Source: a virus
DNA: 64,000 nucleotides
Virus record (IMG/VR): IMGVR_UViG_3300032579_000531
Span: 1 to 64,000 of that record
Direction: 5' to 3' (one strand)
Shown here: one piece after another, positions 25,586-62,744 of the stretch
How positions within the stretch are numbered: position 1 is the first letter of the stretch
Layout of the letters: the number at the start of each line of letters is the position of its first letter
The notes under the pieces: model-generated
Database searches by the model: none
Seen by the model: only the letters and a program-made list of their open reading frames with translations
What the model was told of the DNA's origin: nothing
Program-made: the position numbers and the translations under genes

Positions 25586-26185
25586 TTACTTGATATTTTG
25601 GTAAAAGTCAATGGTCTTTTGTTGTTGCTCTCGAAAATCTTCTGCGGTTCCATTCCAGGGGCGGAACTCTAAATCTTCAAGACGTTGACGGTATTTGTCT
25701 TTTTTGAATCCATCAACTAATACTTGTTCTAGCTTCTTTGCTAATTCTGGATCCATTGTAGCTGGCGCAACGATGCCATACCAATTGTCTATATCTATTC
25801 CAGGATACAACGTACTTAAACAATCTATATCAAGGCCGCTGACACTATCTAATACAGCAATAGCGCAAACGTCGGGGTTAGCTTTTGCAGCCACCCAAGT
25901 GTCAAATGCAAAGTCTATTTCACCTGCAACCAATGCTTCAGCCTGTGTGGTACTACCAGTATAGGTGCGGGTAGTGGGTGTGGGTAAGCCGGCAAGTTTA
26001 ATCCATTGATTGATAACTCTTGCAGTTGGTTCGTGCCAGAATCCCAGAGTAAATCCCTCATGGACTTTTTTTAAAAAATCATTATAACTGCGAATATCTA
26101 GTGTGGAACGTGCTACAAGAACAAAACTGGTACGGGCTACAGGTGTTAACGGGACAAAACTGTCCCGTGTATATCCTAAGGACAT
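25586..26185 (-). pseudogene. C-terminal part of a split TctC (Bug-type) receptor
   Basis: 199 residues aligning to residues from about 90 to the end of TctC: SFVPLTPVARTSFVLVA, DTWVAAKANPDVCAIA, DIDNWYGIVAPATMDPELAK. It starts with an ATG that overlaps the stop of the N-terminal part (TAATG), so the halves could be translated in a coupled way and might still pair. The frame stays open with no internal stops. The break coincides with a diverged tandem repeat in the preceding part. Whether this is a functional two-piece receptor or a decaying gene is open. Confidence 0.75.
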
Positions 26186-26471: not shown

Positions 26472-27413
26472 TTATTTATCTACTTCTGCGGCAATACGCT
26501 TTAGTATCTGCAAATTACGTTTTTGTAACACAAGTAGAGATTCTGAAGTGCCACCATATGTTTTAATATTAAGCATATCCATCTTTTCGCGGTACTTAGA
26601 TTCTTTAAATGCTGCATTAATGATTCGGTTCAACTCGTCTACGGTAGCCTTGGGAGTACCTGTTGGAGCCCATAACCCGTACCATACACCCACATTCAAT
26701 TCTGGGTGTGCAGTTGATATAGCAATAGCCGAGCTGTCGGGTTTAATTTTTTTAATAACTGATAATCCACCCTGGTCCAATGTAGCAAGTACACGGACCT
26801 TGTCGGCAGCAAAGAACGGCTGAATTGCTAACCATGTATCAAATCCCGACATGACCTGCCCGCCAACTAAGTCCTGCATTTGCGGAGTAGATCCTTTGTA
26901 CAAAATGATTGTCGGACGAGGCAACCCCTCTTTCTTAGCCCAATCATAAAATATATTAGCAGTATTGGCATTCCAAAACGCCAAATTAAATTTATCTGGA
27001 TTCGCCTTAACATAAAATTTAAACTGTTCGTAATTTTTAATAGGACTACCGGAGGGCACCGCCAGTACATAACTAATATTTGCTAACGGTACAATAGGAA
27101 CAAAACTTTGTTCTGTGTATTCCATACCTTGTGCTTTAAATGCTATGTTAGCGTCAAGAGCACCTGTTGCACCAACAAACAATGTTTTGCCATCGGGTTT
27201 TCCTTTAGCAACATAATTGGCACCAATGACAGCATCAGCTCCGGGCTTGTTTACAACAATACTTGGCATACCGTGTTCATTAAGAATTTCGCCAACAATG
27301 CGTCCTAGACTGTCTGTGGCCCCTCCCGGTGGATAAGGTACTACAATTTCAATTGGCTGTGCCGCAAATACTGCTGTTGATACAAATAATAATAGTGTTG
27401 CTAAAAATTTCAT
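26472..27413 (-). CDS. tctC: TctC/Bug-family periplasmic solute-binding protein
   Basis: 313 residues from the ATG at 27413, which overlaps the upstream stop as ATGA; an in-frame start 11 codons earlier would spoil the signal peptide. Signal peptide residues 1-17 (MKFLATLLLFVSTAVFA), then QPIEIVVPYPPGGATDSLGR, the TctC/Bug signature, and later NVGVWYGLWAPTGTP and TVDELNRIINAAF. Full family length. It captures a carboxylate in the periplasm and hands it to TctAB; the partner genes lie at 4.5-6.4 kb in another operon. The ligand cannot be predicted. Confidence 0.93.
   Translation of the reverse strand: MKFLATLLLFVSTAVFAAQPIEIVVPYPPGGATDSLGRIVGEILNEHGMPSIVVNKPGADAVIGANYVAKGKPDGKTLFVGATGALDANIAFKAQGMEYTEQSFVPIVPLANISYVLAVPSGSPIKNYEQFKFYVKANPDKFNLAFWNANTANIFYDWAKKEGLPRPTIILYKGSTPQMQDLVGGQVMSGFDTWLAIQPFFAADKVRVLATLDQGGLSVIKKIKPDSSAIAISTAHPELNVGVWYGLWAPTGTPKATVDELNRIINAAFKESKYREKMDMLNIKTYGGTSESLLVLQKRNLQILKRIAAEVDK
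26473..26480 (-). promoter_or_regulatory. Late promoter motif upstream of the split TctC
   Basis: Minus-strand GATAAATA, about 25 nt before the ATG at 26448. It overlaps the stop of the intact tctC gene. Confidence 0.5.
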
Positions 27414-28261
27414 TTCTTCATCCAATCTACGTAATTTTTGTTCCACTCAGCGGGATCATTGAATATGTCCTCACACAAACTGTGATGACGTGCTTTTGAA
27501 TCTCGTGTAAACTCTACAACAAAGCGACCAATTTTCTTTGGATCTTTAAACATACCAAAGTTATCGGGGAACTCTGTTTTAAGTTGTTCGTAAACATCTA
27601 GGTTAGCAGTAAAGCCATTAATTTCCATAATAGTCTTTAGTGCAGCAATACTTGAGTTAGCGGCTGTACACTTGATACTGCCGTTAACTGCGGCCAGCAT
27701 AGTCATGTCGCCAGCTTGCCATTCTGTATAAGGGATTTCGTATTCCAAGTCGTGCCAAAAGTCGTGCGGTAGTATATCTTGGTTGCCGTTCCACATCCAC
27801 TTAGGATGGCGGCTTTCTACAATAATGTGATCACCTCTATGTGCTAAGTGTCTCATAAACCAAGCATGGTCGTGGTGGCCAAATAATACACCCCAACAAA
27901 AGATAATATCATATTTTTCATCATTACCAAGAAAGAACTCTGTTAAACTTTGGTTAATGATTTCCCAGTTATTATCTTTATGATACTTAGTTAATAGTTC
28001 AGTTGCCGTTTCGCAAAACTCTGGACTAATCTCCACACCTGTGTAACTTGCGGCACCATTGCTTAAACACCAATCGCCTGTTTGTCCAATGAAGCTACCG
28101 ATATCTAATATACGTTTATTAAGTAATCGCTCGGGAGGCAATAGCCATTCGTGTTTTTTAATTGTAATGTTAGGGTTCATTGGAACGCCACACTCTGGTG
28201 GACGATTCGCTCTAAAGTCTTTTTCCAAGAACTCAGGATGTTGTTTGAAGGAGTTTATCAT
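27410..28261 (-). CDS. SAM-dependent methyltransferase
   Basis: 283 residues. NKRILDIGSFIGQTGDWCLS is motif I, YTGVEISPEFCETATELL motif II, YDIIFCWGVLFGHHDHAWF motif IV. The layout resembles tRNA-U34/CmoB-like and small-molecule methyltransferases. The ATG lies directly at the 3' end of the tmRNA gene; it reads into tctC with a 4-nt overlap. Substrate unknown. Confidence 0.82.
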   Translation of the reverse strand: MINSFKQHPEFLEKDFRANRPPECGVPMNPNITIKKHEWLLPPERLLNKRILDIGSFIGQTGDWCLSNGAASYTGVEISPEFCETATELLTKYHKDNNWEIINQSLTEFFLGNDEKYDIIFCWGVLFGHHDHAWFMRHLAHRGDHIIVESRHPKWMWNGNQDILPHDFWHDLEYEIPYTEWQAGDMTMLAAVNGSIKCTAANSSIAALKTIMEINGFTANLDVYEQLKTEFPDNFGMFKDPKKIGRFVVEFTRDSKARHHSLCEDIFNDPAEWNKNYVDWMKK

Positions 28262-28603
28262 TTTATCTTTGAAAGTGAGAGAAGCCCCCGGAGGGGCTGG
28301 TTGTTTCTGTTACGAGGCATTTCCTGCCCTAAGCAGTTTTTAGGCTGCTAATGCGTAAACTGAATCGTTTGCGTCTATAGATTTGCTTGATTTATGGTCA
28401 TCGCCTACCCTGTTGCCTTTGTCGCTATCTCACCATGTCGAAACCTTGTCATCCCCACCCAAGTATACTGTCCCACGGACTTTGCACTCCCATTTGGTTG
28501 CACAATATACTTAGGTGGAGATGCCGGGAATCGAACCCGGGTCCACAATGCCTTTACTCTAAAGGAATTACAACAATTCTATTGACTATCTAACCAATCC
28601 TTT
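28262..28603 (-). ncRNA. ssrA: Circularly permuted two-piece tmRNA (ssrA)
   Basis: Read on the minus strand the order is acceptor piece, intervening stretch, coding piece, which is the permuted arrangement. The acceptor piece (about 28603-28514) has a CTAAAGGA/TCCTTTAG stem, then a tRNA-like T arm (GGACCCGGGTTCGATTCCCGG) ending CATCTCCACC at 28514. The coding piece starts GGGGATGACAAGGTTTCGAC at 28456; GGGGATG pairs with CATCTCC as a 7-bp acceptor stem. The tag frame at 28372-28340 reads ANDSVYALAA-stop, close to the E. coli ANDENYALAA. The 57-nt intervening stretch folds into an 11-bp hairpin that extends the acceptor stem. The final CCA is not fully encoded (CC then T), so it must be completed after processing. 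A C-rich hairpin ends the coding piece. It would rescue stalled ribosomes and tag proteins for ClpP-type proteases. Confidence 0.93.
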
Positions 28604-28609
28604 AGTTCT

Positions 28610-28637
28610 ATCATACAATATAATAAAACTGCTACAA
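28610..28637 (-). promoter_or_regulatory. Promoter of the tmRNA gene
   Basis: TTGTAG, 16-nt spacer, TATGAT; start expected near 28603. Confidence 0.6.
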
Positions 28638-31383: not shown

Positions 31384-32363
31384 TTTGCACTCGCTACAAA
31401 CCTTAGGTCTCTGCTTGTGCTGCCCAACTCTTTTTTCATTTGTGGTCCGGCTTGTTTAACGTCAACACGGGCAACGTGTGTTTCTGGTTCGTCTTGAGTA
31501 GTTACATTTACCGGTTCGTCGGTCTTTGTATCAAATCCGTGTATGTTTAACTTGCGACCGTAACGACGTTCTAATTCTTGCCAAACACGATATCCACCTG
31601 TACTTTGTTTGTTGTCTGACACCAGGGTCAAGCCACGATTTAAAATTAAGAAACCATATAGGTCTGCGGCACGGTACTGATTCTTAGGACCAGAGTAAAC
31701 ACCTTGGATGACAAAACTGTCGCGATTTGATTTGTACGGACGACCAGTTGTACCCAGCTGACTTGTGCGGGTGCGGGTATCAAATACATAGTAAGTAACA
31801 GTACCGCGATCTACCCAAGACCAAAGTTGATAGCCGTGTCCCATTTCTGCTACTAAGTCGCCCATATGACTAGACTCATCACCTTTGGGTATAGGCTTGC
31901 CATCATTAGGCATAACGTCTAAATGTTCACGTTTGCTTTTGGCAACGCTAGGCACTAACGTAACTTCTGCTACATTTTTAATACCAACGTAAGCCTTTAT
32001 AGTAGGAATGCCTAATGCTTTTGCTACATTAGCTCTATGGTAACCATCTAAGATAAATCCATCACCAATAACAATAGGAGGTGCTTTACTAAAGTCCATT
32101 GTTTTATATTGTTCTACTTTAGACGAATCTAACTTAGGCAAATCTGTCTTAATAGAATTTACAGGAATATCTTTTAATTCAAATCCTGTAAAAGTATTAG
32201 TAATATAATCAGTATAATCACTGTGTAAATTTGAATCGTGATATTTGCGAATATAACCAATAATATCTTCTGTAGAAACAGATTGACTTTCCATAATACC
32301 AGTGCTACGACGTAGGCGTAGCTCGTCGCTGATTTCGTTTAGGAATAACTCAGATATTAACAT
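31380..32363 (-). CDS. ParB-like domain protein
   Basis: 327 residues from the ATG at 32363, which overlaps the amidoligase stop as TAATG. Around residues 75-130, LKDIPVNSIKTDLPKLDSSK ... VIGDGFILDGYHRANVAKAL is a ParB/Srx core (DGYHR motif). The C-terminal 150 residues (YQLWSWVDRGTVTYYVFDTR, YGFLILNRGLTLVSD) form a separate unrecognised domain of a type found in T4-like phages beside amidoligases. Confidence 0.78.
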   Translation of the reverse strand: MLISELFLNEISDELRLRRSTGIMESQSVSTEDIIGYIRKYHDSNLHSDYTDYITNTFTGFELKDIPVNSIKTDLPKLDSSKVEQYKTMDFSKAPPIVIGDGFILDGYHRANVAKALGIPTIKAYVGIKNVAEVTLVPSVAKSKREHLDVMPNDGKPIPKGDESSHMGDLVAEMGHGYQLWSWVDRGTVTYYVFDTRTRTSQLGTTGRPYKSNRDSFVIQGVYSGPKNQYRAADLYGFLILNRGLTLVSDNKQSTGGYRVWQELERRYGRKLNIHGFDTKTDEPVNVTTQDEPETHVARVDVKQAGPQMKKELGSTSRDLRFVASAK

Positions 32364-35158
32364 TACGTACTCATCTTTGCTCGACAACTAAACAAGCTAG
32401 GATCTTCTGCGCCGATACCACGTAACCAGGCCTGTGCTGTTGACCACGCACTGGTTTGGTCGTGGTCAGCAAAGGTGTGTACTACGTTTCCAGAATCAAG
32501 CTCGTATACAATCCACAGTGGAACACCATTGGGTGCTGTTGCTTGTACAGGATCGCCTGAACGGTATTGTATATACGCATCATCTCTACCAGTCAAATCA
32601 TTCACATATCGTTTGGCATCTATTGCCAGGTCTCGTAACTGTGATGAATGCCCGGGCATGGTTGGCAAGAAACCATAGATCCTGTTATCACTGCCGCCAC
32701 GTACTTCATAGTAGTCGCCAGTACTAGGACGTTGACTTAACATTCCCGCCGGCGGGGTAGTATTGTCTTGTTGCGGAGTACGATTTGCTACACGTTCTGC
32801 GCTGGCATCAGTTGGAACACTACTCATAGTAACTTCGCTACCACGTCTGCTTTCGATGCCTCGTTTAACTGCTTGCGCTTGAATCAACGTAATATCGTGA
32901 ACTTGATCTATTAGATTACCGCTGCTATCTTTAAACTGCCAAGTGCGTGGAACAGTATTGGCATCGTTTGCATCTTTTGGTGTGTCTTTTTCGTTGTGCA
33001 GTTCTAAATCGTCTACACTATCAAAATCGTGTTGCTGTGCTACCTTGACCAATAGTTTCTGTGCTTCTTCACGACTGACATTCATAATAGTATCAACCAC
33101 ACGGCCAGTTGGACGATAAACAACGTTCCAATTTGGTTTAGGTGCTTTGATACGTTTGGCTAGCTTTTCACGCTGACTCAACTCTGGTGCAGGTGCATCT
33201 GGATCTGCTGGACGTAAGTTAAATCCAATACCTTCTTTGCTGTACTTGTCGTATACTGAATCAGCAGCTTCGCCTTTGGTAGCAAAGCCGTTTAGAGTTT
33301 CTAGTGTTTCACCTGTGTTGACATCGTAAACTTCCCAGTCGCCTGTGGCACTACGCATTGGACGTAAGGTGTATTCCTTCTGGAAACCTTCCATACTACC
33401 GCCGGGACTGATTTTCTGTTTGGCACGTTCCCACGCATCGGATTTGGTATAACCGTTGTACTCTTGACCAACAACGGCCTTGCCTGTGGCATCCCATAGT
33501 TTCCAATCGCCTTTGGGTTCGTTGCTTAGAGCTTTATCGGCCCAGCTCTTTTTAAGTTCTTCACTGCTGATAGCACCTGTGGCAAAACGTGCAAATAAAT
33601 CCAATGCAGGATCACCTTCTACTGGTGCAATAAGTTTGTACAACTTCTTGTAGTATTCTTTGCGTTCTAGATCGGGACGGCTGGCAATATACATAGCCTG
33701 TGCATAGCGCATCAGGGTATTTTGTAATTTAGCGATATCTTCAAAGTAGTTTGTACCACCAGCTGAGCGGAACTCGATATACTTGGCACCTTTACGTTTA
33801 GTAGGATCTGGACTAGTATTTGCACCTTGTGGGTTAATACTTGTATACTTGCCAAAGCCAGCATTGCTGATCTCTAGAGCCTTTTGTGCTAGTTCCAACA
33901 GGTTGTGCTTCATTAGTTCTAGCGCACCAGCTACAGCTTCTTTGTTGCCACGCACACGTGTCTTGATCTTTTTCATTGCGGCTTCGGCATAGTGATTACT
34001 AGCACGACCAAATGATTCTAGCACGTGTTCATCACCTAAGAATAGTGCTAGTTTAACATAGTCAACATCGCCGCCCTTGTTAGGTAAACTAACGCCCATA
34101 TGGAAGCCAGTTGATTCGTTAGAATAAGCACCATTGGACTCGGCCCATTCAAAGAACTGTTGCAACTTGGCTAAACATTCTTGTAAGGGCATAGGAGGAC
34201 TAACAATCTCTACTGGCATGTTGTCCGAATCGTCTGCATCTAAACTTGAATCTGGTTCAAAAATCCAAGTTTCATCATCACGTGTAGCTGAATGATATCC
34301 ACCGGACACTTTGGTTTTAACACCTAATTCTTTACTTAAACTATCAGCTAAACTGCGAGCATTATCTTCGCTGAATCCACCCTCACTGCTCTGACCAGTG
34401 TAAGTAATAACGGGCCACACCAATTGAAATTCACTAGCAATGTCACTCATCCAACGCAGGCCAACATCACCAAAGAAACTACTATCGTCATCGACATAAA
34501 AATCATTGCGGAAGTCATCTAATGCTGAGTCGTAAGTGCCATCTTGTGCTTTAATACTGTCTTGAACTAGTTCGTCTAGTAGGCCTTCTGCTTCTTCGCG
34601 AGCATTAATATAGTTTGCATAGGCTTTGTTTGTTTTCATTGCCTCACGTTGTTCAACGGAGCTATTAAATTGAGGAGCCTCACTACCTTGTATCAAGGCA
34701 TCGCTAACTTCATCTTCGGACAGATCCATCAACTCTAACTGTTTACGAGTTTCGTCATCCCAATCAAAATCATCTTCTTCGATAATTTTTTTAATTAAAT
34801 CTTCTTGCTCATCACGGAAAGCATCGTACATTTTCTCGTCGACCCATTCCATATACTTTTCATCTAGCCCTTCTTGTAACTTATCCAAGTCTCGGCCATA
34901 TGTAGCATAACCGTACTCGTCGTTACCGAAAAAGTTTATAACATCATCGATGCTATTGCAACGCTCGTCAGCATCATAATCGGGTTCGGGATCTTCATCG
35001 TAATCGGCTTCACCGCCTTGTCCGGTAAACACAAGTTCTGCTTCAAATCCGGCCATGATGCCTTCTGCTTCGGGGCTACTAGCAAACTGCTGTAACGAAC
35101 GAGGATTCATGCGAAGCTCGTCTAATTGTTGTTCGGAAAGTAGGTCTTTATATCTCAT
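32363..35158 (-). CDS. Putative amidoligase-type large phage protein
   Basis: 931 residues, very acidic N-terminal third. The region of about residues 290-480 shows the ATP-grasp-like amidoligase pattern: GGYHSATRDDETWIFEPDSS, PVEIVSPPMPLQECLAKLQQ, STGFHMGVSLPNKGG, LALFLGDEHVLESFGR and KYIEFRSAGG. The C-terminal 350 residues hold three or four repeats of about 60 residues (WxVYDxxTGExxxTxxGFxxKxEA type), probably small beta domains. It might join amino or carboxyl groups on a peptide or protein. Neighbouring ParB-like genes are co-transcribed. The start has no clear Shine-Dalgarno. Confidence 0.7.
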   Translation of the reverse strand: MRYKDLLSEQQLDELRMNPRSLQQFASSPEAEGIMAGFEAELVFTGQGGEADYDEDPEPDYDADERCNSIDDVINFFGNDEYGYATYGRDLDKLQEGLDEKYMEWVDEKMYDAFRDEQEDLIKKIIEEDDFDWDDETRKQLELMDLSEDEVSDALIQGSEAPQFNSSVEQREAMKTNKAYANYINAREEAEGLLDELVQDSIKAQDGTYDSALDDFRNDFYVDDDSSFFGDVGLRWMSDIASEFQLVWPVITYTGQSSEGGFSEDNARSLADSLSKELGVKTKVSGGYHSATRDDETWIFEPDSSLDADDSDNMPVEIVSPPMPLQECLAKLQQFFEWAESNGAYSNESTGFHMGVSLPNKGGDVDYVKLALFLGDEHVLESFGRASNHYAEAAMKKIKTRVRGNKEAVAGALELMKHNLLELAQKALEISNAGFGKYTSINPQGANTSPDPTKRKGAKYIEFRSAGGTNYFEDIAKLQNTLMRYAQAMYIASRPDLERKEYYKKLYKLIAPVEGDPALDLFARFATGAISSEELKKSWADKALSNEPKGDWKLWDATGKAVVGQEYNGYTKSDAWERAKQKISPGGSMEGFQKEYTLRPMRSATGDWEVYDVNTGETLETLNGFATKGEAADSVYDKYSKEGIGFNLRPADPDAPAPELSQREKLAKRIKAPKPNWNVVYRPTGRVVDTIMNVSREEAQKLLVKVAQQHDFDSVDDLELHNEKDTPKDANDANTVPRTWQFKDSSGNLIDQVHDITLIQAQAVKRGIESRRGSEVTMSSVPTDASAERVANRTPQQDNTTPPAGMLSQRPSTGDYYEVRGGSDNRIYGFLPTMPGHSSQLRDLAIDAKRYVNDLTGRDDAYIQYRSGDPVQATAPNGVPLWIVYELDSGNVVHTFADHDQTSAWSTAQAWLRGIGAEDPSLFSCRAKMST

Positions 35159-52860: not shown

Positions 52861-52912
52861 ATACTTGTACATTAAAGAACAGCAACAAGCTGTCGAGATC
52901 GAGGAGCTATGT

Positions 52913-53194
52913 ATGGGTGAAATTTTTAAGATTATTGGTGATTTGGGTTTTCCTGTTGCAGCGGCACTAGCTGGCGGGTACTTTGTATTCCTAACCATCA
53001 AACTATTACTAGGCGGTGTTCTTAGTAGTGTCAAGGGCATGGCCGGCATTATTACTGCCTTAGACAATCGTGTTAAAACGATGAACCACGATGTTATACG
53101 CATTGATACTGTAGTAAGTAACGCACTAGGTCTACGTCCTGATGTAGAACGTATTAGTCGTGCAGATGGCAAGACAGACGCAAGAAGAGATTAA
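52913..53194 (+). CDS. Small membrane protein, holin-like family member 1
   Basis: 93 residues from the ATG at 52913 (GAGGAG site 6 nt upstream). MGEIFKIIGDLGFPVAAALA with one membrane helix (FPVAAALAGGYFVFLTIKLLL), then IITALDNRVKTMNHDVIRID. Paralogue of the gene at 53378 (both MGEI ... GFP ... DR ... ND.IR). A late motif AATAAATA lies at 52857-52864. Possibly a holin or virion membrane component; unproven. Confidence 0.72.
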   Translation: MGEIFKIIGDLGFPVAAALAGGYFVFLTIKLLLGGVLSSVKGMAGIITALDNRVKTMNHDVIRIDTVVSNALGLRPDVERISRADGKTDARRD

Positions 53195-53385
53195 TGAATT
53201 ATATTGGTTACGATTTTAGTCTAACCGAACGTGGTATCGGATTAGATGACGAACTTGATATTGATAAATTGGGTTGGCATGCTGGAGACTATTTTCGATT
53301 AGAAAATGTCAATGGTCGTGTAATGTTGCGTAAAATAGATCCACTAGAAAAATTTCTAATAGACGGAGAATCAAAAAATGGGTGA
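53194..53385 (+). CDS. Small soluble protein, unknown
   Basis: 63 residues: MNYIGYDFSLTERGIGLDDE, then AGDYFRLENVNGRVMLRKID. Located between the two paralogous membrane genes with overlaps. Function unknown. Confidence 0.7.
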   Translation: MNYIGYDFSLTERGIGLDDELDIDKLGWHAGDYFRLENVNGRVMLRKIDPLEKFLIDGESKNG

Positions 53386-53701
53386 AATAGCAGAATTAGT
53401 TAATAAGTATGGCTTTCCAATTGTCATGGCAATCGGTATGGGTTATATTATTCATTATGTGTGGAAATGGGCAACAGTTGAAGTTAAGCCAGTGATTACA
53501 GATGCTAATACTGTGCTTATTGCTCTTATTGATCGTATCCGTATGTTGGACAATGACTTGATTAGACTTAATCAAAAGGTTAATACTGTGCTACACCTAC
53601 GCGGTAAAACAATTGAACACGAACGGGTCGAAGCTGAAGCAGAAATTAATAAATTAACCAAGTCAGATGACGACAAGGAAGCCGCAGGCGGCAATGGCTA
53701 A
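53378..53701 (+). CDS. Small membrane protein, holin-like family member 2
   Basis: 107 residues: MGEIAELVNKYGFPIVMAIG, membrane helix FPIVMAIGMGYIIHYVWKWA, then ALIDRIRMLDNDLIRLNQKV and a charged tail. Duplicate of 52913-53194. Confidence 0.74.
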   Translation: MGEIAELVNKYGFPIVMAIGMGYIIHYVWKWATVEVKPVITDANTVLIALIDRIRMLDNDLIRLNQKVNTVLHLRGKTIEHERVEAEAEINKLTKSDDDKEAAGGNG

Positions 53702-53850
53702 TTAGGCTTGCAGATATTACCTTTAGATCCATTTAAACTATAGACACTGATCCAACGGTCAAGTTCTGTGCCGTATTCAGCAAAACGGTATGGCAGGAAA
53801 TAGATGTGTAATGCCCACCATACGTAACTATCCAACACTTTGTCTATAAT
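53698..53850 (-). CDS. Small protein after the cyclase, unknown
   Basis: 50 residues from the ATG at 53850, overlapping the cyclase stop by one nt. MIIDKVLDSYVWWALHIYFL suggests a membrane-associated start; ends SVYSLNGSKGNICKPN. Converges with the plus-strand membrane gene. Confidence 0.62.
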   Translation of the reverse strand: MIDKVLDSYVWWALHIYFLPYRFAEYGTELDRWISVYSLNGSKGNICKPN

Positions 53851-55901
53851 CATTTTTCGTGTGCGATAAATTCGCCGTTCCAATTAGCAGGTAAGTCCTG
53901 TTGCTTCATGAACTCACAACGCTCTATCCAAATCTTGTAGTACTTGTCCATTTGTCCGCCAAAGTTACCAACGAGCTTTTTACACATCGCGGCCGCTTCA
54001 TCAAACTTCTTAGCCTTGTATAAGGCATGCATAGCATTGTGTTGTTCTCGATCTTTTGTGTAGTCTGCACCCTTGGTACGTAGAACTGTGTAGATTAAGT
54101 CTGCTACAGTCTTACCTTTAGGTTGTAAGTTATCTAGTAACAAGTAGAAGAAATCATCTTGAGTACGGTTATAAGTTTCTGCGCCAATAATACACAATAC
54201 ACCATAGGCTTTACAACGTGCTTCTAAGCGAGCAGCAGTTGATACGGAATCACCCAGAATATCGTAGCTATGTCTGTCAGTTGAGCCCATTTCACCAATA
54301 AAGCCAATACCTGTATTACAGCCCCAGCCCATTGCAGCAGGTGGTAATCCTTGTGCTTCCATTAGTTTAGTATATTCATCTACAGCATCTAACATCTCAA
54401 GTCCTACCTTAACGATAGTACGTGCATGATTAGGATCTTCAATAGGAGCACCGAACATATACATTGAAGCATCTCCTACATATTTTAAGACCATACCGTT
54501 ATTATCTAGCACCGGCTTGCTAATAGCGTCCATATAGCCGTTCATATACCGGCCAAGACCGGCCACATCGTCGCCATAATGTTCACCAATCGGGGTAAAC
54601 CCTCTAAGGTCGCTAAAAGCAACCGATACATCTTTTCGAACGCCTTGCTTTACAAGTTCGGGATTTTTCTGTAGCATCTCTACTACTTCCTTACTACAGT
54701 AACCAGCAAACTGTTTCTTAATTGCTTGCTTCTGTAAGAACTCGCTTACGAACTTCACCCCATAAGTATGGAGAGCAACCAGGACAAGACCACCAACCAC
54801 CACAGTAATGTCAAACAGCCAAGCCCTACTCGAATACATATAATTAGAAAGAGGAATAGCCCCGCCAATAACGATAACTGCTGAAAGAATGCCAACATAA
54901 GTCCACCTTGAAAGAAAAATTAATAGAATACCCAGTGCAACAAAGCCTATGACTTCTGCACCCTCGGCCCAGTCTGGACGAGTAATAACAGGACGTGTCT
55001 TGTTAGCAATTACAGTACCCAGTACAGCCGCTTGTAAATCTTGTGGTAGCATTTCACCTAAACTTGTTGCAACAGGGTTAGCTAGTCCTTGTGCCGATAC
55101 ACCTACTATAACAATCTCACCTTCAAAGTCTCGAGGCAAGTCAGTTAAACTATAATGGTCTGGAGTCAATGACCAGTCAATCCATATACGTGACAAACTA
55201 TCTGTAGCCACAATGCCTTGACTAGGTATACGCATCTTCTCTACACCGTTGTCATTTACTTTGATCTGTACAGTTGAATCGCCTCCGGCTACACGTAAAG
55301 TCTCCATTGCCAGGTTGGGATATAGTTGACCATTGTATGCAACTACTAACGGCATACGACGTACAACACCGTCTACTTCAGGAAATGTATTTGTAATACC
55401 AACACCTGCGGCAGCGGATTCTACTTGCGGTATATTAGCAATAATGCCAGGGAACTCTACAAACGCTTCTTGGTTGAAACTTCCAATGACCGCTGAACCT
55501 GGGGCTCGTGGATTGTTTCTAGTTGTTGCTCCTCCGACGCTAGGAAGAACTGTTGGGTATTGTTTAAGTGCTTGTACATAATCTTGGTCACGACCGAGGC
55601 GATCACGATCAGGAGTAAAAATATTGAAAACAACAAGACCAGCATTCCGCTTATAAAGATCGGCGATAATGCGGCCATAGATATCTCGACTGAATGGAAA
55701 TTGTCCATATTTTTCTAGTGCCTTTTCATCAATGTTTACTACGCTAACCCCAATCGGTTCTGCTGTCTTGCTGGTTACTAGTGTATCAAAGTAACGTAGG
55801 CGAACACTTTCAACAAATGTAGGATCTGATATACGCAGAGCAGTTACAAGGGCTAGAGTTAATAAAGCAGTCCAGGGACTGGTTAGTATTTTTTTGAACA
55901 T
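53850..55901 (-). CDS. CHASE2-domain adenylate/guanylate cyclase
   Basis: 683 residues from the ATG at 55901. N-terminal CHASE2 sensor (about 30-300: VVNIDEKALEKYGQFPFSRD, then DYVQALKQYPTVLPSVGG), three membrane helices (about 310-390), and a class III cyclase domain (about 425-590): VSVAFSDLRGFTPIGEHYGD (first metal Asp), MVLKYVGDASMYMFGAP (second Asp), SYDILGDSVSTAARLE. Most class III cyclases have N in GDxVNxAARLE; here it is S, so activity or its rate may be altered. CHASE2 cyclases are often paired with FecR-like proteins in bacteria, as here. A second-messenger output linked to the curli operon is inferred. Confidence 0.92.
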   Translation of the reverse strand: MFKKILTSPWTALLTLALVTALRISDPTFVESVRLRYFDTLVTSKTAEPIGVSVVNIDEKALEKYGQFPFSRDIYGRIIADLYKRNAGLVVFNIFTPDRDRLGRDQDYVQALKQYPTVLPSVGGATTRNNPRAPGSAVIGSFNQEAFVEFPGIIANIPQVESAAAGVGITNTFPEVDGVVRRMPLVVAYNGQLYPNLAMETLRVAGGDSTVQIKVNDNGVEKMRIPSQGIVATDSLSRIWIDWSLTPDHYSLTDLPRDFEGEIVIVGVSAQGLANPVATSLGEMLPQDLQAAVLGTVIANKTRPVITRPDWAEGAEVIGFVALGILLIFLSRWTYVGILSAVIVIGGAIPLSNYMYSSRAWLFDITVVVGGLVLVALHTYGVKFVSEFLQKQAIKKQFAGYCSKEVVEMLQKNPELVKQGVRKDVSVAFSDLRGFTPIGEHYGDDVAGLGRYMNGYMDAISKPVLDNNGMVLKYVGDASMYMFGAPIEDPNHARTIVKVGLEMLDAVDEYTKLMEAQGLPPAAMGWGCNTGIGFIGEMGSTDRHSYDILGDSVSTAARLEARCKAYGVLCIIGAETYNRTQDDFFYLLLDNLQPKGKTVADLIYTVLRTKGADYTKDREQHNAMHALYKAKKFDEAAAMCKKLVGNFGGQMDKYYKIWIERCEFMKQQDLPANWNGEFIAHEK

Positions 55902-55905
55902 CAAG

Positions 55906-55913
55906 TATTTATT
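55906..55913 (-). promoter_or_regulatory. Late promoter motif 4 nt before the cyclase ATG
   Basis: AATAAATA, CTTG, ATG at 55901; no ribosome site between. Confidence 0.5.
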
Positions 55914-56385
55914 TTATTTGAATTAGGTTATCTTTGAAAATACTCCAACATTCTTCCCAGGTCCAGTGTAGACTAGATTCTTTAACTTGTGCTCGATCTA
56001 GAGTTAAGCATTTACGAACAGCTTCTTCAAGATCCCAATCCATACACCCGTTTACACCCGGCTCAATAATGTCTATAGGGCCTTGTACCGGAAATGCCGC
56101 TACTGGAGTTCCTTGTGCCATTGCTTCTATAATAACTAAACCAAATGTATCTGCGCTACTTGGGAATACAAATACATCTGCTTGATTATAATAGTCTACT
56201 AGTTCTTGTCCTGATTTATACCCCACAAACTTAGCCCACGGTAACAATCTACGAGCATCTTTCATGTACGGCCCATCACCTACAATGACCAACGTATATT
56301 CTGTGGGATCTAATTCTGCTAAAGTTGCCAACAAACTGCTGTATTTCAAAATAGCCGCCGCAGTCCTGTACATATAAACTAACAT
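55909..56385 (-). pseudogene. C-terminal fragment of a family-4 glycosyltransferase
   Basis: 158 residues covering only the second (nucleotide-sugar) domain of GT4: LVIVGDGPYMKDARRLL, VDYYNQADVFVFPSSADTFG and LVIIEAMAQGTPVAAF with the E-x7-E motif. The N-terminal acceptor domain is missing. In another frame the bases just upstream encode RYYKENLDDVS, which looks like the missing KEKNLD-type linker, hinting at a frameshift and older full gene. The large curlin gene follows directly upstream, so insertion of the curli block may have cut it. Confidence 0.72.
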
Positions 56386-56436
56386 CGTCTAAATTTTCTT
56401 TATAATAGCGATATTTGTTTATGGTAAAGGATATCA

Positions 56437-58641
56437 TTAGTTACCCTGGCGAACAGTTATTGTGCCGCAGGTGGTATAACAAGTTTGTGTAACACTATAA
56501 CTTTGTCCACCAGTTTGTGTTAAATTTACACTTGCTGGAGCACCGCTATTAACTAAAGATATTGACGCAGAGTTTGCGCCGCTTGCACCTGTATTTGATT
56601 GCGTTACTGTAGCAGAGTTGCTGTTACCTGTTGCACTAACACTGATATAACTGGCACTAGTTCCTGTTTGACTTGTTGTTACTGTATTGCTATTACCTGT
56701 TACACTGGCAAATAATTGATTGCGAGCTGTACCTGTTTGTGTAATACCAACGGTGTTTAAGTTTCCATTAATAGTTACACTAGCAAACTGGCCAGCATTG
56801 GCAACAGTATTCTCTTGCACTACAGTCAAGTTATTACCAGTACCATTGACATAATCATATTGATAGTGCCCACCTTGATCAAGTCCTGTTGCTGTGCCTG
56901 TGCTACTTGTACCTTGATTTAAATTAAGAGTGTTACTACCTCCTGCAGAATACAAGTCTATTAGGTTATTACCTGTATGTGCAGTAGGATCACCTTGGCG
57001 TACAGTTATATGATTACTGCCTCCAGTAATAATTGCAGCAGTAGCAGTAGCACCATCTAATCTATTGCCTGCACCAACTTGCGTAATATTAATTGCGTCT
57101 CCATTACCAGTTTGGTTAATATAAATTACATTATTAGTAAGTCCCGGCATAGTGACTGCGTTAACTTGATTCTGTTGTGCGGTAGTAATTGTACTAGAGC
57201 CACCCGACGTGGATGTGTTGATCAATGTAGCTGAGCCATTGTTGGCTGTAGTTGTGCTACCATCACTCCATGTTGTGGTTGTAATAGGTTGGCTATAGTA
57301 GCTAGTAGTACTACCACTGGTACTAGATGTTGTGATAACAGAGTTTGCTGTGCTTACTACAGTTGGAGCAGAGGAACCGCCGGTTCCGCCGGTCTGTCCA
57401 GCAGTTAGCGGAGTACTACTCATACCACCAGATAATGTATTAGTTTGTGCGGCTGTTGGATTTTCTACTCCAGTGAAGGTAGCACCTTGTCCTGTTAATC
57501 CCAAGTTACCACTGAGCAATGTTCCATTGTAGTTACTATTAGTAAAGAACAAATACAAGTTACCATTACTAGCAGTACCTTCAACTAATATGCGCCCAGT
57601 ACCCAATGCTCTAAATGATCCATCAGCATTAACCAGAATCATAGTCCACGGATTAGTTGCACTATCACTTCCTGTATTAGGAATAAACGTAACATACTGA
57701 GTACTACCGATTGCTGTCCAGCTACCTGTTTCGTATGTGCCACCTGGGCTTGTGCTATATACCTGACATGTTGCGGTTTGTGTGCAAGCACTGACATTCC
57801 ATTGCGTATCTGCTACTTGACTTGCACCAAAGTGTACTCCGGTAAATGCCGAGCTTGATAAGGTTGTTTGTGTTGCTGTACCAACTACTGTAGAAACTGC
57901 GCCATCGCTATAGGTTGTTGTAGTTGTAGGTGTTGTTACAGTTACTTGTTGATTGCCAATAATAACTGTACTGGTTGCAGTTGTTGTAGTAGTGCCTGTT
58001 ACAGTAACTGCCGGAGCTCCGCCCACACCTTGTGTTGCCTGCGGAGTGACCATTGTAGTAAATCCAGCACTAGCACCAGGAGTACATGTAAAGATAGTTG
58101 TACCTGCGGCACATGCACCTGCATAGGTTCCTACTTCAATACTGGGATTGCTACTGGCATTTGTTCCAGACAAGTAGAAACTGATATTGTATGTTGAGCC
58201 TGCGGTTACACTTATACTTTGATAGATACCGTCGTAACTACCAACTGCGCCATCGTACCATTGATAAGGACTCCAATACCCAGCAGCCGATGGTACTGTT
58301 CCGTTTTGATACCATACTCCCCAATCAGCTGGTGCTTGTATTCCCACAGAGGTTGATCCACCATATTGTAAGTTACCATTGGCTAATAAGTTAGTGGATG
58401 ATCCCGACTTGGTAACTGCGGCATTGGTAAATGTCCAGTAACCTGGATCCTGTCTAAAAGCAAAACCAATGTAGTCTGCACCGGTTGTGTTGGCTGTAAA
58501 ACTATAATTGTACTGTATATTACCGCTAGAATAATTTAATACCCCACCCAAGTATCCACTTGGAAGATTCTGTGCGTGTGCCTTGGGAGTACAGAATCCA
58601 ACAAGGCTGGCGATAAGGATAGTGGCAAGTATTTTAAACAT
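56437..58641 (-). CDS. Large curlin-repeat protein with N-terminal domain
   Basis: 734 residues, signal peptide 1-23 (MFKILATILIASLVGFCTPK, AHA-Q). N-terminal part (about 25-190) is a beta-sandwich-like, PEP-CTERM-protein-style domain (SYDGIYQSISVTAGSTYNIS). Middle is T/S/G-rich linker. C-terminal part (about 510-734) is curlin repeats of the N-x-V/I-x-x-TQ-x-G type (NVIYINQTGNGDAINITQVG, LNTVGITQTGTARNQ, NSNSATVTQSNTG). It would be a CsgB-like nucleator or a large fibre subunit. It follows the FecR-like gene by 1 nt. Confidence 0.83.
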   Translation of the reverse strand: MFKILATILIASLVGFCTPKAHAQNLPSGYLGGVLNYSSGNIQYNYSFTANTTGADYIGFAFRQDPGYWTFTNAAVTKSGSSTNLLANGNLQYGGSTSVGIQAPADWGVWYQNGTVPSAAGYWSPYQWYDGAVGSYDGIYQSISVTAGSTYNISFYLSGTNASSNPSIEVGTYAGACAAGTTIFTCTPGASAGFTTMVTPQATQGVGGAPAVTVTGTTTTTATSTVIIGNQQVTVTTPTTTTTYSDGAVSTVVGTATQTTLSSSAFTGVHFGASQVADTQWNVSACTQTATCQVYSTSPGGTYETGSWTAIGSTQYVTFIPNTGSDSATNPWTMILVNADGSFRALGTGRILVEGTASNGNLYLFFTNSNYNGTLLSGNLGLTGQGATFTGVENPTAAQTNTLSGGMSSTPLTAGQTGGTGGSSAPTVVSTANSVITTSSTSGSTTSYYSQPITTTTWSDGSTTTANNGSATLINTSTSGGSSTITTAQQNQVNAVTMPGLTNNVIYINQTGNGDAINITQVGAGNRLDGATATAAIITGGSNHITVRQGDPTAHTGNNLIDLYSAGGSNTLNLNQGTSSTGTATGLDQGGHYQYDYVNGTGNNLTVVQENTVANAGQFASVTINGNLNTVGITQTGTARNQLFASVTGNSNTVTTSQTGTSASYISVSATGNSNSATVTQSNTGASGANSASISLVNSGAPASVNLTQTGGQSYSVTQTCYTTCGTITVRQGN

Positions 58642-58642
58642 A

Positions 58643-59785
58643 TTAATTCTGCTTGGTTGTTATAAAGGTATTGCCACCGGCATTGATTCTGTTGGTGATG
58701 GTTACATTACCACTCTGTGTCTGTACAATAGTAGAATTTTGACCTTTAGGAGTTGTAACACAACTTGTATTACTATTAGCATCACTGCGACATAACTGTA
58801 CACTGATTGCATCTACAGTAGCTTCTACCCCCGATGATTTTCTATAATCGGGAAGCAATTGATTCTTGGGTGCGGCTAACAAGTTACCAAATTCTGCAGC
58901 AAGTTGATCATTCATTATTTGTAACATGCTTTCAAGGAAGTCCTGATCTAATAGATTACGTTGTAGTGCATTGGTATAAACTTGATTATTTTCTGCAACC
59001 AATACACTACTTAGATCAACACCCTTAAGAAAATCTTGACTAAGTGCCGATTCAGCTGGCAACTTTTCTGCTTGTTGGCGTTGCTGAGCAGTTTTAATTT
59101 CTTGCGGTGGTGCCAGGATTAACATATTTCCAATAGCATCTTCAGTTAAGTGTAAGGTAACAGGCCTTGTGGGTGCTACATTACGTGCGGATACTTTAGT
59201 TGCCTGGAATGCTTGATCTAATGTTACAGTACCGGCGTCATTCATAACATCAATTTTACCAGTCACACAATAACGTTCAATCTCATCGGGCAACATATTT
59301 TTACGTGGACAGCTTGGCAATAGAATAAATGTGCTGGAACCTAGCTCATCAACTGTAGCAGTAAAATCAGTACCGCGAACAGCAACGGTAGCAGTAGGAG
59401 TGTTGATAGCCACCTTATTAGGATTGTTATGAGCAATCGCCCCTGATGCGTAGCGGACTGTACCACTAGCCATGTTAAGAGCAAGTTTGCCAGCATCTTT
59501 ATTTTTTGGATCATACACGAATTCGTCAATGACCAGTTTGGAGTTTTCATTCACTTGCACCTTAGTGTCATCGGCAAACACAATACCAACCTTGCCTTGC
59601 TTGGTAGTAATGGCGTCAGCCATATCAACACCGGTACCTTTACTACCAGTAAGTGTTGTTTTTGCTCGTTGTATTTGCGGAGGATTGTTTACTTGTTCTG
59701 TGATTGTGCCAATGGCAGCATGAGCGGAAATAGACAACAATAATGTTGCCCAAATTAATCGTCTTGTTGCTTGAACCATACACAT
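58643..59785 (-). CDS. Secreted FecR-domain protein
   Basis: 380 residues, signal peptide about 1-23. ADAITTKQGKVGIVFADDTK then VQVNENSKLVIDEFVYDPKN is the FecR domain (as in secreted FecR/LysM-like proteins), followed by GTVRYASGAIAHNNPNKVAI and TPTATVAVRGTDFTATVD. The C-terminal 60 residues (NSTIVQTQSGNVTITNRINA) look like a short curlin-like end. It overlaps the small upstream gene by 31 nt. Its place between curlin genes and a CHASE2 cyclase matches known FecR-CHASE2 pairs. Confidence 0.85.
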   Translation of the reverse strand: MCMVQATRRLIWATLLLSISAHAAIGTITEQVNNPPQIQRAKTTLTGSKGTGVDMADAITTKQGKVGIVFADDTKVQVNENSKLVIDEFVYDPKNKDAGKLALNMASGTVRYASGAIAHNNPNKVAINTPTATVAVRGTDFTATVDELGSSTFILLPSCPRKNMLPDEIERYCVTGKIDVMNDAGTVTLDQAFQATKVSARNVAPTRPVTLHLTEDAIGNMLILAPPQEIKTAQQRQQAEKLPAESALSQDFLKGVDLSSVLVAENNQVYTNALQRNLLDQDFLESMLQIMNDQLAAEFGNLLAAPKNQLLPDYRKSSGVEATVDAISVQLCRSDANSNTSCVTTPKGQNSTIVQTQSGNVTITNRINAGGNTFITTKQN

Positions 59786-59931
59786 CGTTGTAAGTCTCTC
59801 ATTAATTGATCTTTTGGCGTACCAGTAAGTCTGTGCGCCAGCTCTATAAAATCTACGGCTCTACTAGCCACATTAGACTGACCATCGCTCCACTGTTGAT
59901 ATACTGTGTTTAAGAAGCGAAGGTCTGTCAT
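59755..59931 (-). CDS. Small cytoplasmic protein inside the curli operon
   Basis: 58 residues: MTDLRFLNTVYQQWSDGQSN then ELAHRLTGTPKDQLMRDLQR. No signal peptide. Starts 3 nt after the curlin stop. Too short and unlike CsgE or CsgC. Unknown. Confidence 0.65.
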   Translation of the reverse strand: MTDLRFLNTVYQQWSDGQSNVASRAVDFIELAHRLTGTPKDQLMRDLQRCVWFKQQDD

Positions 59932-59934
59932 ATA

Positions 59935-60834
59935 TTAATGATGCTGTACAATGTTCCAAGTATTACTGCTACCACTACTTTGAATATTTGTAGTGTTGTT
60001 ACCGCTTGTAGCTGTTTGGTTCACAGTAAATGTATTGCTATTACCAGTTAACCCTAATACTAACGTGTTATCGTTACTACCAGTTTGGCTTGCTGTAATA
60101 GTATTACTAGAACCTGTTAAACTTCCAACTACTGCTAGGCCAGTTGCATTATAACCACCAATAGTAATACTGTCGCCATTGGAGCCACCAGTTTGTGTCA
60201 ACCCAAATGTATTACTTGCACCTGTACTGTTTAAAGTAACACTAGCATTAGTTGCCGCTGTTGTTGTAGTCCCTTGAGTCATTGTTAGACTATTACTTGC
60301 GCCACCGTTCATTGTGATATTATCAGTATTATTTGTACCGTTAACAATAGCAACAATAGAGTTACTACTACCGCCTGCTGTCACAGCGGTAAAGTTGTTA
60401 CCTGTACCTAATAAGTTAATATTCAAATTGGCAGTATTACCAGTTTGTGTTACACTAATATTATTACTTGCACTTGTAGCAGAGCCATCATTGTTACTAT
60501 TGATCACTGCTGTTGCATTGTTACCTGTCACAGAGTAATTGTAATTGTTACCAGTTAATCCGTTGGCCACAGTTGTCTGGATACCTAATTGTAAGGTATC
60601 GCCTGTGCCTACTTGATTTACTGTTACGTTATTACTATTACCAGTAATTACTGCCGGTGTTGTTGCACTTGAACCTGTGCCTTGTACACCTTCTACTGCA
60701 TCACCTGCGCCATTTTGTGTAATTGAAATGTTACTGTTACTACCTGATTGATTGATGTAGATGGTGTTATCTGCACCAAATGCACTTATAGTCACTACGG
60801 CTAGCATTGTTGTTATTATTTTCGCTAGTTTCAT
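59935..60834 (-). CDS. Curlin (CsgA-like amyloid subunit)
   Basis: 299 residues, signal peptide about 1-20 (MKLAKIITTMLAVVTISAFG). Mature part is almost only N/T/S/G/V with curlin repeats spaced 20-25 residues: NTIYINQSGSNSNISITQNG, NNVTVNQVGTGDTLQLG, NNISVTQTGNTANLNINLLG, TNTFTVNQTATSG-like ends and the terminus WNIVQHH. N-x-x-x-TQ/NQ-x-G is the core of CsgA amyloid. Exported by CsgG and polymerised outside the cell. Confidence 0.88.
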   Translation of the reverse strand: MKLAKIITTMLAVVTISAFGADNTIYINQSGSNSNISITQNGAGDAVEGVQGTGSSATTPAVITGNSNNVTVNQVGTGDTLQLGIQTTVANGLTGNNYNYSVTGNNATAVINSNNDGSATSASNNISVTQTGNTANLNINLLGTGNNFTAVTAGGSSNSIVAIVNGTNNTDNITMNGGASNSLTMTQGTTTTAATNASVTLNSTGASNTFGLTQTGGSNGDSITIGGYNATGLAVVGSLTGSSNTITASQTGSNDNTLVLGLTGNSNTFTVNQTATSGNNTTNIQSSGSSNTWNIVQHH

Positions 60835-60905
60835 TTTACTACTCCTTTTGGCCCCTGGCCTTATGTCCTGCGGTCCCTGCTTCTCCGCTGGTTGTTTTAG
60901 TTACT

Positions 60906-61868
60906 TCACTTTACTACCCCCAACTTTGCTTCTACATCTGCAGGTAAGCCTGTTTTATTAGACATACCTAATGGAATTGTTGGCTCGCCCTTGGCATTAG
61001 GATTAATATACGCTGGCGCTACTTGGTTGTAGTCCCATACCCCTTTGCGTTGGCCTTCCTTGATTAACTCTACTACACTTGCTTCAATAGTTGATTTAAG
61101 TGCGATAGTGGTTGCTTCGTTGATTGTTAAACCTGATTCAAATTGGAATATTGCTGCCGCAGCATCTGTTGCGCCGGTATTAGGTGCGCCAATTTGCGTA
61201 ACCATATGTCCCAAGCTACCTGGATCTATACTCTTAAAGATTGCAATACTATCTGCTGTTGAGTAAATGATCTTGGTAACAGTTACACTGGCTAGAATCT
61301 TACCGGTGTTAACACTGATAGCACGTAGACTAATTGTGATAATATCTTTACTGTACTGAGTTGTTGGGCCAATACCAAGGAAGTTATATCCTGTACCACC
61401 AGACTCCAGTCCGGTATCGTAACCAATAATTCCGCCTTCAATAATTACGCCGGCAAACTGTAATGGCATTAGCTTCTGTGCATCTTTACCTTCATATGCT
61501 TGACGCATTTGAGTAATGATTAACCGCTCTTTGGTCAAGGCATCAATGTTTCCTCGCTCAACAACATCAAACCATAAACCGTGACCAACGTCTTGCAAAC
61601 TGCGAATTAATAGTGCATCGCCACCTTGTGTAACTGCTGTACTAAAACTGGCAATACCAGGAACTGCTTTACGTTGTCCTGTTTTATCTGCAAAGTTGTA
61701 GACAGCCACAGTTAAACGACCAGCAGCAGGTGGAGGAATAGCATCAAACTCTTTTTGTAATTCGTTTTTAGGTACTACAGGTTTTGCCTCTAGTACTCCC
61801 ATTTTTTGGCTTATAGCACAACCAGAAAGTGCCGCTATTACCATTATGGATAAGAGTAATTTTTTCAT
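60906..61868 (-). CDS. csgG: CsgG, outer-membrane curli secretion channel
   Basis: 320 residues (family about 277-300) with lipoprotein signal MKKLLLSIMVIAALSGCAIS (lipobox LSGC). AAGRLTVAVYNFADKTGQRK, VPGIASFSTAVTQGGDALLI, WFDVVERGNIDALTKERLII, GGIIGYDTGLESGGTGYNFL and SVTVTKIIYST match the CsgG core, including the membrane-hairpin region. It forms a nonameric outer-membrane pore for curlin export. Start overlaps the csgF stop (TAATG). CsgE and CsgC are not in the window. Confidence 0.95.
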   Translation of the reverse strand: MKKLLLSIMVIAALSGCAISQKMGVLEAKPVVPKNELQKEFDAIPPPAAGRLTVAVYNFADKTGQRKAVPGIASFSTAVTQGGDALLIRSLQDVGHGLWFDVVERGNIDALTKERLIITQMRQAYEGKDAQKLMPLQFAGVIIEGGIIGYDTGLESGGTGYNFLGIGPTTQYSKDIITISLRAISVNTGKILASVTVTKIIYSTADSIAIFKSIDPGSLGHMVTQIGAPNTGATDAAAAIFQFESGLTINEATTIALKSTIEASVVELIKEGQRKGVWDYNQVAPAYINPNAKGEPTIPLGMSNKTGLPADVEAKLGVVK

Positions 61869-62335
61869 TAGTTTCCGCCTCCGGTAATGTTAAATTGACT
61901 CAATGGAATATTAATTGTAGTTACGTTACCCACGTTGTCTGTTACTTGCAATTGGATTTGACTACCATTATTGTTATAGTAGATCGTGTTGCCCTGGAAG
62001 GTAATCTGGCCAGTACTACTGCTACCGCCGGCAAACATTGCAGTGGCTAAATTCTGCGAAATCTGTGCATAAACACGCGATTCCAGGTTGGTTAGGAACT
62101 GATTTATAGGGGTATTGGCTGCATCTGCCTTGGCTTGTTGCGCGGCCGCTGTAAGTGCTTGCTGAATAGTCAATGCACGTTGATACTGCTGATTTTCCAA
62201 GGCCATTTGGAAAGTTGAGTAGCCGTTACCATTCAAACTAGCACTTTTAAATGAGTAGTCTGATATTGTAGTAGCGTAGGTGGTTGTCGCGGATAAGGCG
62301 ATTGCGGTTAGAATAACCTTGTTGATAATTCTCAT
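61868..62335 (-). CDS. csgF: CsgF, curli nucleation/anchoring factor
   Basis: 155 residues, signal peptide about 1-21 (MRIINKVILTAIALSATTTY). SYSFKSASLNGNGYSTFQMA-type start (in E. coli [20 protein letters not shown]) and QFLTNLESRVYAQISQNLAT then GNTIYYNNNGSQIQLQVTDN match CsgF. It caps CsgG and positions the fibre nucleator. First gene of the curli operon; the -10 TATAAT at 62358-62363 lies about 25 nt upstream. Confidence 0.92.
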   Translation of the reverse strand: MRIINKVILTAIALSATTTYATTISDYSFKSASLNGNGYSTFQMALENQQYQRALTIQQALTAAAQQAKADAANTPINQFLTNLESRVYAQISQNLATAMFAGGSSSTGQITFQGNTIYYNNNGSQIQLQVTDNVGNVTTINIPLSQFNITGGGN

Positions 62336-62435: not shown

Positions 62436-62744
62436 TTAAATTGTAGGTATTCTTTTAATTATTTCTTCGTAGAAAGAGTCCAATTCTCCACCAAATTGAC
62501 CTATCAGATGATCTGAAATATCTTTGCAGAGCTGGTAATTTTCTTCTTTGAGTGCTTTGATAAAGCCTTCGTGTAACTCTATATAGTTGGTTAAATTTGT
62601 AAATCCAGAAAGTCCAATCTTTTCAGGAGGCACTACACAATAGGTAGTTACCGGAATACCCTTAACATCAAACGTCTCAAGTTCTAATACTGTATGAGTT
62701 TGTTTTAATTGTTGTACTGCTCGGTGGTCCCAAACTATTTGCAT
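62436..62744 (-). CDS. Phage protein, unknown
   Basis: 102 residues: MQIVWDHRAVQQLKQTHTVL, then YIELHEGFIKALKEENYQLC and LIGQFGGELDSFYEEIIKRI. Helical, with no membrane segment. One-nt junction with the exonuclease gene. Confidence 0.7.
   Translation of the reverse strand: MQIVWDHRAVQQLKQTHTVLELETFDVKGIPVTTYCVVPPEKIGLSGFTNLTNYIELHEGFIKALKEENYQLCKDISDHLIGQFGGELDSFYEEIIKRIPTI

Follow-up and report, generated by a model that had tools for sequence, protein, structure and literature searches.

Gene content of the curli module

The window analysed here is a stretch of 64,000 nucleotides, positions 1 to 64,000 of the virus record IMGVR_UViG_3300032579_000531. The record, 78,032 bp long and classed as viral, carries phage genes (among them one for a head maturation protease) and encodes, outside the window, a long tail-fibre-like protein (recognised by eye). 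A run of minus-strand genes encodes the curli export proteins CsgF and CsgG, two curlins, a FecR-domain protein, a truncated glycosyltransferase and a CHASE2 nucleotide cyclase, and small-protein genes accompany them on both strands. The features, in window coordinates, are as follows.

62436–62744, minus strand: stand-alone cyclase C-terminal segment, 102 aa, just upstream of csgF (hhalign)
61868–62335, minus strand: csgF, extracellular chaperone or pore cap, signal peptide by eye (PF10614, 8.9e-12)
60906–61868, minus strand: csgG, outer-membrane lipoprotein secretion pore, lipobox LSGC (PF03783, 7.2e-40; 3x2r, 5e-71)
59935–60834, minus strand: curlin 1, CsgA/B-like subunit, 299 aa, signal peptide by eye (PF07012, 1.7e-4)
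59755–59931, minus strand: conserved small gene, 58 aa, overlapping the FecR start (tblastn, ~20 loci)
58643–59785, minus strand: FecR-domain protein (PF04773, 2.9e-11; AF2; Foldseek)
56437–58641, minus strand: curlin 2, 734 aa (PF07012, 6.5e-3, below the cut-off)
55909–56385, minus strand: truncated glycosyltransferase, 158 aa (PF13692, 4.8e-22)
53850–55901, minus strand: CHASE2 and class III nucleotide cyclase with a C-terminal helical extension (PF05226, 2.9e-38; PF00211, 2.8e-12)
53698–53883, minus strand: conserved small gene, 61 aa, just 3′ of the cyclase (tblastn, ~15 loci)
53378–53701, plus strand: module-linked small protein, 107 aa, with one transmembrane helix (by eye) and a conserved amphipathic segment
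53194–53385, plus strand: conserved gene, 63 aa, between two small membrane proteins
52865–53194, plus strand: small membrane protein, 109 aa, first gene of the cassette; the conserved part starts at the ATG at 52913

These genes are a real virus set for building amyloid (curli) fibres on the surface of the infected bacterium, and sensing of the fibres is probably also a role of the set. The sequence-only reading of this DNA had proposed a phage-encoded curli secretion operon joined to FecR and a CHASE2 cyclase, and this holds; Pfam places the named genes on the minus strand in the order it gave, with the repeats of curlin 2 below the cut-off, and the small gene that it listed between curlin 1 and FecR is the conserved 58-aa gene at 59755–59931. 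It had also allowed that the contig might be a bacterial segment or a chimera. Three other contigs, whose CsgG is at least 98% identical to that of the window (L002–L004), preserve the layout, the glycosyltransferase fragment being missing only from L003, and a chimeric assembly is therefore unlikely. The virus record and the recurrence of the same layout on independent contigs rule out both concerns.

The module is a further member of a published marine-phage curli set, to which it adds a few unreported details. Wittmers et al. described a type VIII secretion (T8SS) module in pelagiphages with the order CsgF-CsgG-CsgA/B-FecR-CsgA/B-adenylate cyclase, considered it to be of alphaproteobacterial affinity and transferred between myo- and podoviruses (Wittmers et al., 2022; PMC9599517), and the set is also treated in two further papers (Zaragoza-Solas, 2020; PMC7029224; Buchholz, 2022; PMC9004378). 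The gene order in the window is the same as in the pelagiphage module, while curlin 2 is longer than its counterpart there. The annotated order is also the same in Methylophilales phage Melnitz (MZ577097) and Pelagibacter phage HTVC008M (NC_020484), and their CsgG and cyclase proteins are 35-45% identical to those of the window, which has an extra truncated glycosyltransferase. At the nucleotide level, positions 40001–62400 of the window show no similarity to any phage record. The set is thus not the unusual combination that the sequence-only reading took it for: published in 2022, it is the standard form, present in 63/63 loci that are long enough.

The CsgG-CsgF pore and the curlins

The window proteins match the Pfam CsgF and CsgG families, and CsgG aligns to a solved CsgG (3x2r) with high significance. 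For the 299-aa protein, the curlin repeat match (PF07012) exceeds the curated cut-off. A profile built from curlin 1 and 43 relatives matches the solved bacterial curlins 8c50 (3e-39) and 8enq (6e-7). The AlphaFold model of curlin 1 is a repeated all-beta fold (pLDDT 86), for which Foldseek returned weak generic beta-rich matches only, with no curlin among the matches listed. Curlin 2 consists of an N-terminal extension of ~500 aa fused to C-terminal curlin repeats. Its first ~180 residues occur as a separate protein in two other loci (L017 and L018), and its N-terminal region has no Pfam or PHROG match.

Compared with the csgBAC-csgDEFG operons of E. coli, the window shares CsgG, CsgF and curlins, has no CsgE, and adds FecR, a CHASE2 cyclase and a small-protein cassette. 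CsgE had already been reported as not visible, and a search with PF10627 bears this out, finding none in the window record or in eight related long virus records while recovering the E. coli control. CsgE is an efficiency factor and not a strict requirement (PMC7029224), and CsgE, CsgC and CsgD are all absent from the pelagiphage module (PMC9599517). Of the parts of a type VIII secretion system, the window therefore holds CsgG, CsgF and a secreted subunit with curlin repeats, and lacks CsgE.

The FecR-domain protein and its C-terminal tail

The FecR protein of the window has a signal peptide-like start, a FecR beta domain, a helical linker and a C-terminal curlin-like strand repeat. The FecR domain (PF04773) is the sole Pfam family matched, and Foldseek with the predicted model supports the fold through the anti-sigma FecR domains of PupR and BDI_1681 (4m0h, 6ovk; E ~2.5e-4). 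Ahead of this domain, neither an anti-sigma domain nor a transmembrane helix was found; there is a signal-peptide-like start only, with no anti-sigma family match.

The C-terminus is confidently predicted as beta structure by AF2 (residues 320-379, block pLDDT 87-94). Its final strand ends in a glutamine conserved in 64/65 sequences, and a second glutamine lies 21-22 residues before the terminal one in 47 of the 65. The kernel of the curlin repeat is N-x-psi-x-psi-x-Q-x-G (PMC10192328), and the glutamine spacing of the FecR tail equals the curlin repeat period. The terminal strand-Gln pattern occurs in 81/124 FecR proteins versus 30/1558 other proteins; the 11 bacterial FecR neighbours all lack it. 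In profile comparison the tail aligns end to end with the final curlin 1 repeats. This alignment has little significance (hhalign probability 6%, E 0.006 pairwise), its score being 18.8 where 30 column shuffles reached at most 16.1. In a position-specific scoring matrix (PSSM) test of the FecR tails, which did not pass all of its controls, only 14/124 tails score above the 99th percentile for the tails of other ORFs, a control that includes some unlabelled curlins. Pfam calls no curlin repeats in the tails of the FecR set, sequence searches of the PDB with the N-terminus and the C-tail gave nothing convincing, and no curlin is among the matches listed by Foldseek for the FecR model. The likeness of the tail to a curlin repeat is supported by these sequence comparisons; because the profile match is weak, the resemblance may be convergent.

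The CHASE2 cyclase

A single protein of the window contains both a CHASE2 and a Guanylate_cyc domain. The metal-binding aspartates and the substrate lysine of the cyclase are invariant (columns D432, K474 and D478 in A2). Class III cyclases normally carry a transition-state asparagine, which was present in 41/41 bacterial cyclases checked. The window cyclase has serine at this position and, because serine replaces the usual asparagine, its activity is unproven.

The phage cyclases divide into two active-site types, each with 59 of the 118 sequences. The first pairs Lys/Asp with Ser and includes the window and Melnitz cyclases, while the second has Lys/Thr or Lys/Ser with Asn. The serine label changes about six times on the cyclase tree, which therefore suggests either exchange of the catalytic domain between phages or a recurrent change of the residue. 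In a FastTree phylogeny a branch with support 100 separates the sampled bacterial cyclases from every phage cyclase; within this limited bacterial sample, the tree is consistent with one entry into phages.

Small proteins, a cyclase-tail copy and the glycosyltransferase

The small-protein cassette consists of the 109-aa and 107-aa proteins; in many loci a third gene, of 63 aa, separates the two. It is placed either just 5′ of csgF or convergent to the cyclase. The window has the latter arrangement, with the genes past the cyclase on the opposite strand, unlike the placement before csgF in the pelagiphage module (PMC9599517). Other module genes lie within the available flank in 76/80 loci of the 107-aa protein, and the remaining four are short contigs. 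Searches of 289 alphaproteobacterial and 300 Burkholderiales genomes, run without a positive control, did not find the family.

In the pelagiphage module one or two genes ahead of csgF were called histidine kinases (PMC9599517), whereas in the myophage-type loci examined here the genes in that position encode proteins of ~100 aa in which no kinase domain was found. Pfam gives no HATPase match for these cassette proteins, and they lack an invariant histidine, so the idea that the small genes are histidine kinases finds no support. If the name was meant for the ~100-aa proteins, which we set against the published genes by position alone, it is doubtful.

The 102-aa product of 62436–62744 matches the C-termini of phage cyclases (hhalign probability 99.2%, E 2.7e-19), and its homologues sit beside csgF in many loci. 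The glycosyltransferase has a group 1 domain within only 158 aa. Its full-size relatives, of 337-356 aa, are near the module in other loci, and L003 retains a 19-aa remnant only.

Distribution in phages and bacteria

Public viral contigs contain at least 577 CsgG relatives of the module type. CsgF, FecR and the cyclase accompany CsgG in all 63 loci with enough flank, and a simple pattern finds a curlin in 60 of them; since loci were not strictly de-duplicated, these counts refer to contigs and not to independent events. Among 50,697 phage records, CsgG, FecR, the cyclase and both small proteins occur in the same six. Beyond these, the cyclase domain alone matches two Acinetobacter phage records, and CsgG alone matches one short Salmonella record. 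The latter, OR851715.1, is a 1,499-bp unannotated record named 'Salmonella phage S.Kent 1-2-1', and may be a piece of bacterial DNA deposited under a phage name.

For the bacterial comparison we took the 80 genome contigs closest in CsgG. The genuine bacterial curli loci among them have no FecR, cyclase or small-protein cassette within the available flank. Contigs that do bear these genes (L034, L037, L038, L039, L042, L043, L046, L060 and L068) come from metagenome-assembled genomes (MAGs) labelled Rhodobacteraceae, Sphingobacteriales, Saprospirales, Flavobacteriales, Synechococcus and Pelagibacter. One of them (L043) agrees with a virus contig (L028) in both length and match coordinates, and several others have flanking phage genes in common; the module-bearing MAG contigs are apparently phage contigs binned by mistake. 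A bacterial source of the full set was rejected, as its carriers lie in MAGs of unrelated taxa and several have phage genes, with four short contigs outside this check. Judged from these sequences, the gene identities, their order, their conservation and the virus-specific linkage of the full set are well established. Relatives of the module and the cassette also lie on viral contigs of 264-344 kb (L014, L115, L130 and L131), and the module is therefore not confined to T4-size phages.

FecR and CHASE2 cyclases also meet in bacteria. A FecR-domain gene lies within 8 kb of 11/40 best bacterial CHASE2 cyclases (Alphaproteobacteria and Burkholderiales), and csgG is beside none of the 40. These neighbours share the pair with the window, but without csgG nearby and without a curlin-like tail on FecR. 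Because bacteria have the pair without csgG, it looks pre-existing, which suggests that an older FecR-CHASE2 pair became linked to curli in phages.

A proposed mechanism and its alternatives

We propose that the module combines curli export with a FecR-CHASE2 sensor that would report the state of the fibre or curlin as a cyclic nucleotide, a reading to which we give a probability of about 0.5. CsgG and CsgF would form an outer-membrane pore exporting the two curlins; this is the best-supported step of the mechanism, by analogy with the known families. The exported curlins would then assemble into amyloid on the infected cell, and the large curlin 2 probably presents a non-amyloid domain on the fibre. 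Once exported to the periplasm, the FecR protein would bind curlin or the fibre base through its curlin-like C-terminus and, with the small membrane proteins, signal to the inner-membrane cyclase through the CHASE2 domain that the cyclase has in the periplasm. The infected cell would thereby make a cyclic nucleotide, probably cAMP, according to the curlin or fibre state. We infer fibre formation, the contacts of FecR with curlin and with CHASE2, and the direction of signalling; FecR-to-curlin docking and FecR-to-CHASE2 signalling are suggested by gene linkage and the tail motif. A benefit to the phage from adhesion or aggregation of infected cells, or from exclusion of competing phages, is a guess, and no clumping was seen in Melnitz-infected cultures (Buchholz et al.; PMC9004378). 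Clumping, a superinfection shield and a release pore are jobs already proposed in the literature (PMC9004378; PMC7029224; PMC9599517).

The leading alternative, rather unlikely in our estimate, makes FecR a structural component at the base of the fibre that nucleates it as CsgB does, or anchors it, through the curlin-like tail, with the cyclase as a separate accessory that regulates host genes. In most loci FecR is found between two curlins. Its C-terminus can be aligned to the C-terminal end of curlin 1, and the fourth-ranked Foldseek match of the FecR model is a 'cell surface anchoring domain' (5ix9, TM 0.72 over 62 columns, the matched part of FecR not being resolved). However, the tail has no curlin homology at a strict threshold, and bacteria without curli have FecR beside CHASE2 cyclases, which points to signalling. 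The fully specified form of the sensor reading is a virus-specific amyloid-sensing circuit in which the FecR tail would dock curlin or the fibre and act through CHASE2 on a cyclase with the non-canonical Lys/Asp and Ser site, tuned by the cyclase-tail protein and the cassette; taken as a whole, it is unlikely.

It is improbable that the CsgG-CsgF pore has been repurposed as a gated pore or a pinholin-like lysis timer, an idea put forward for Melnitz (Buchholz et al., 2022; PMC9004378). In its favour, CsgE, the periplasmic gate, is missing, and in Melnitz the module is near replication and structural genes. However, that proposal presupposed that curlin genes were lacking, and Melnitz as annotated has two, flanking FecR. 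As curlin genes are present, the release-pore idea has lost its main premise; they occur in nearly all loci, and a pore alone leaves their conservation unexplained. Nutrient import or iron-responsive regulation, taken from the FecR name and suggested in two papers (PMC7029224; PMC9599517), is very improbable, given a signal peptide and a PF04773 match without the N-terminal anti-sigma part, and no sigma factor or FecA-like receptor seen among the scanned window proteins.

The phage curli module has so far been published as gene content only, and in the papers cited here we found no description of a small membrane-protein cassette travelling with the module, a stand-alone cyclase C-terminus next to csgF, a FecR with a curlin-like Gln-spaced repeat at its end or two cyclase active-site types. 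These parts are specific constructs for testing, and they call into question two annotation ideas, FecR as an iron regulator and the genes before csgF as histidine kinases. If the sensor reading is true, phages that cover a cell with amyloid and bring a second-messenger sensor of their own would alter the view of surface remodelling while abundant planktonic bacteria are being infected.

Indications of the host

A permuted tmRNA lies at 28249–28627 on the minus strand, with the tag ANDSVYALAA and the betaproteobacterial model RF01850 as its best match (165.6 bits). Because the Melnitz tmRNA was reported as SAR11-like (PMC9004378) whereas that of the window is beta-type by Rfam, the two phages may have different hosts. 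The window also carries tripartite tricarboxylate transporter genes, a TctA and two TctC-like (4523–6019, 25586–26185 and 26472–27446, minus strand). The best TctA matches in the Burkholderiales sample are 56% identical and come from genomes of 1.7-1.9 Mb, which hints at a small-genome betaproteobacterial host. A 931-aa protein at 32363–35158 (minus strand) contains an amidoligase domain (PF12224, 2.8e-7).
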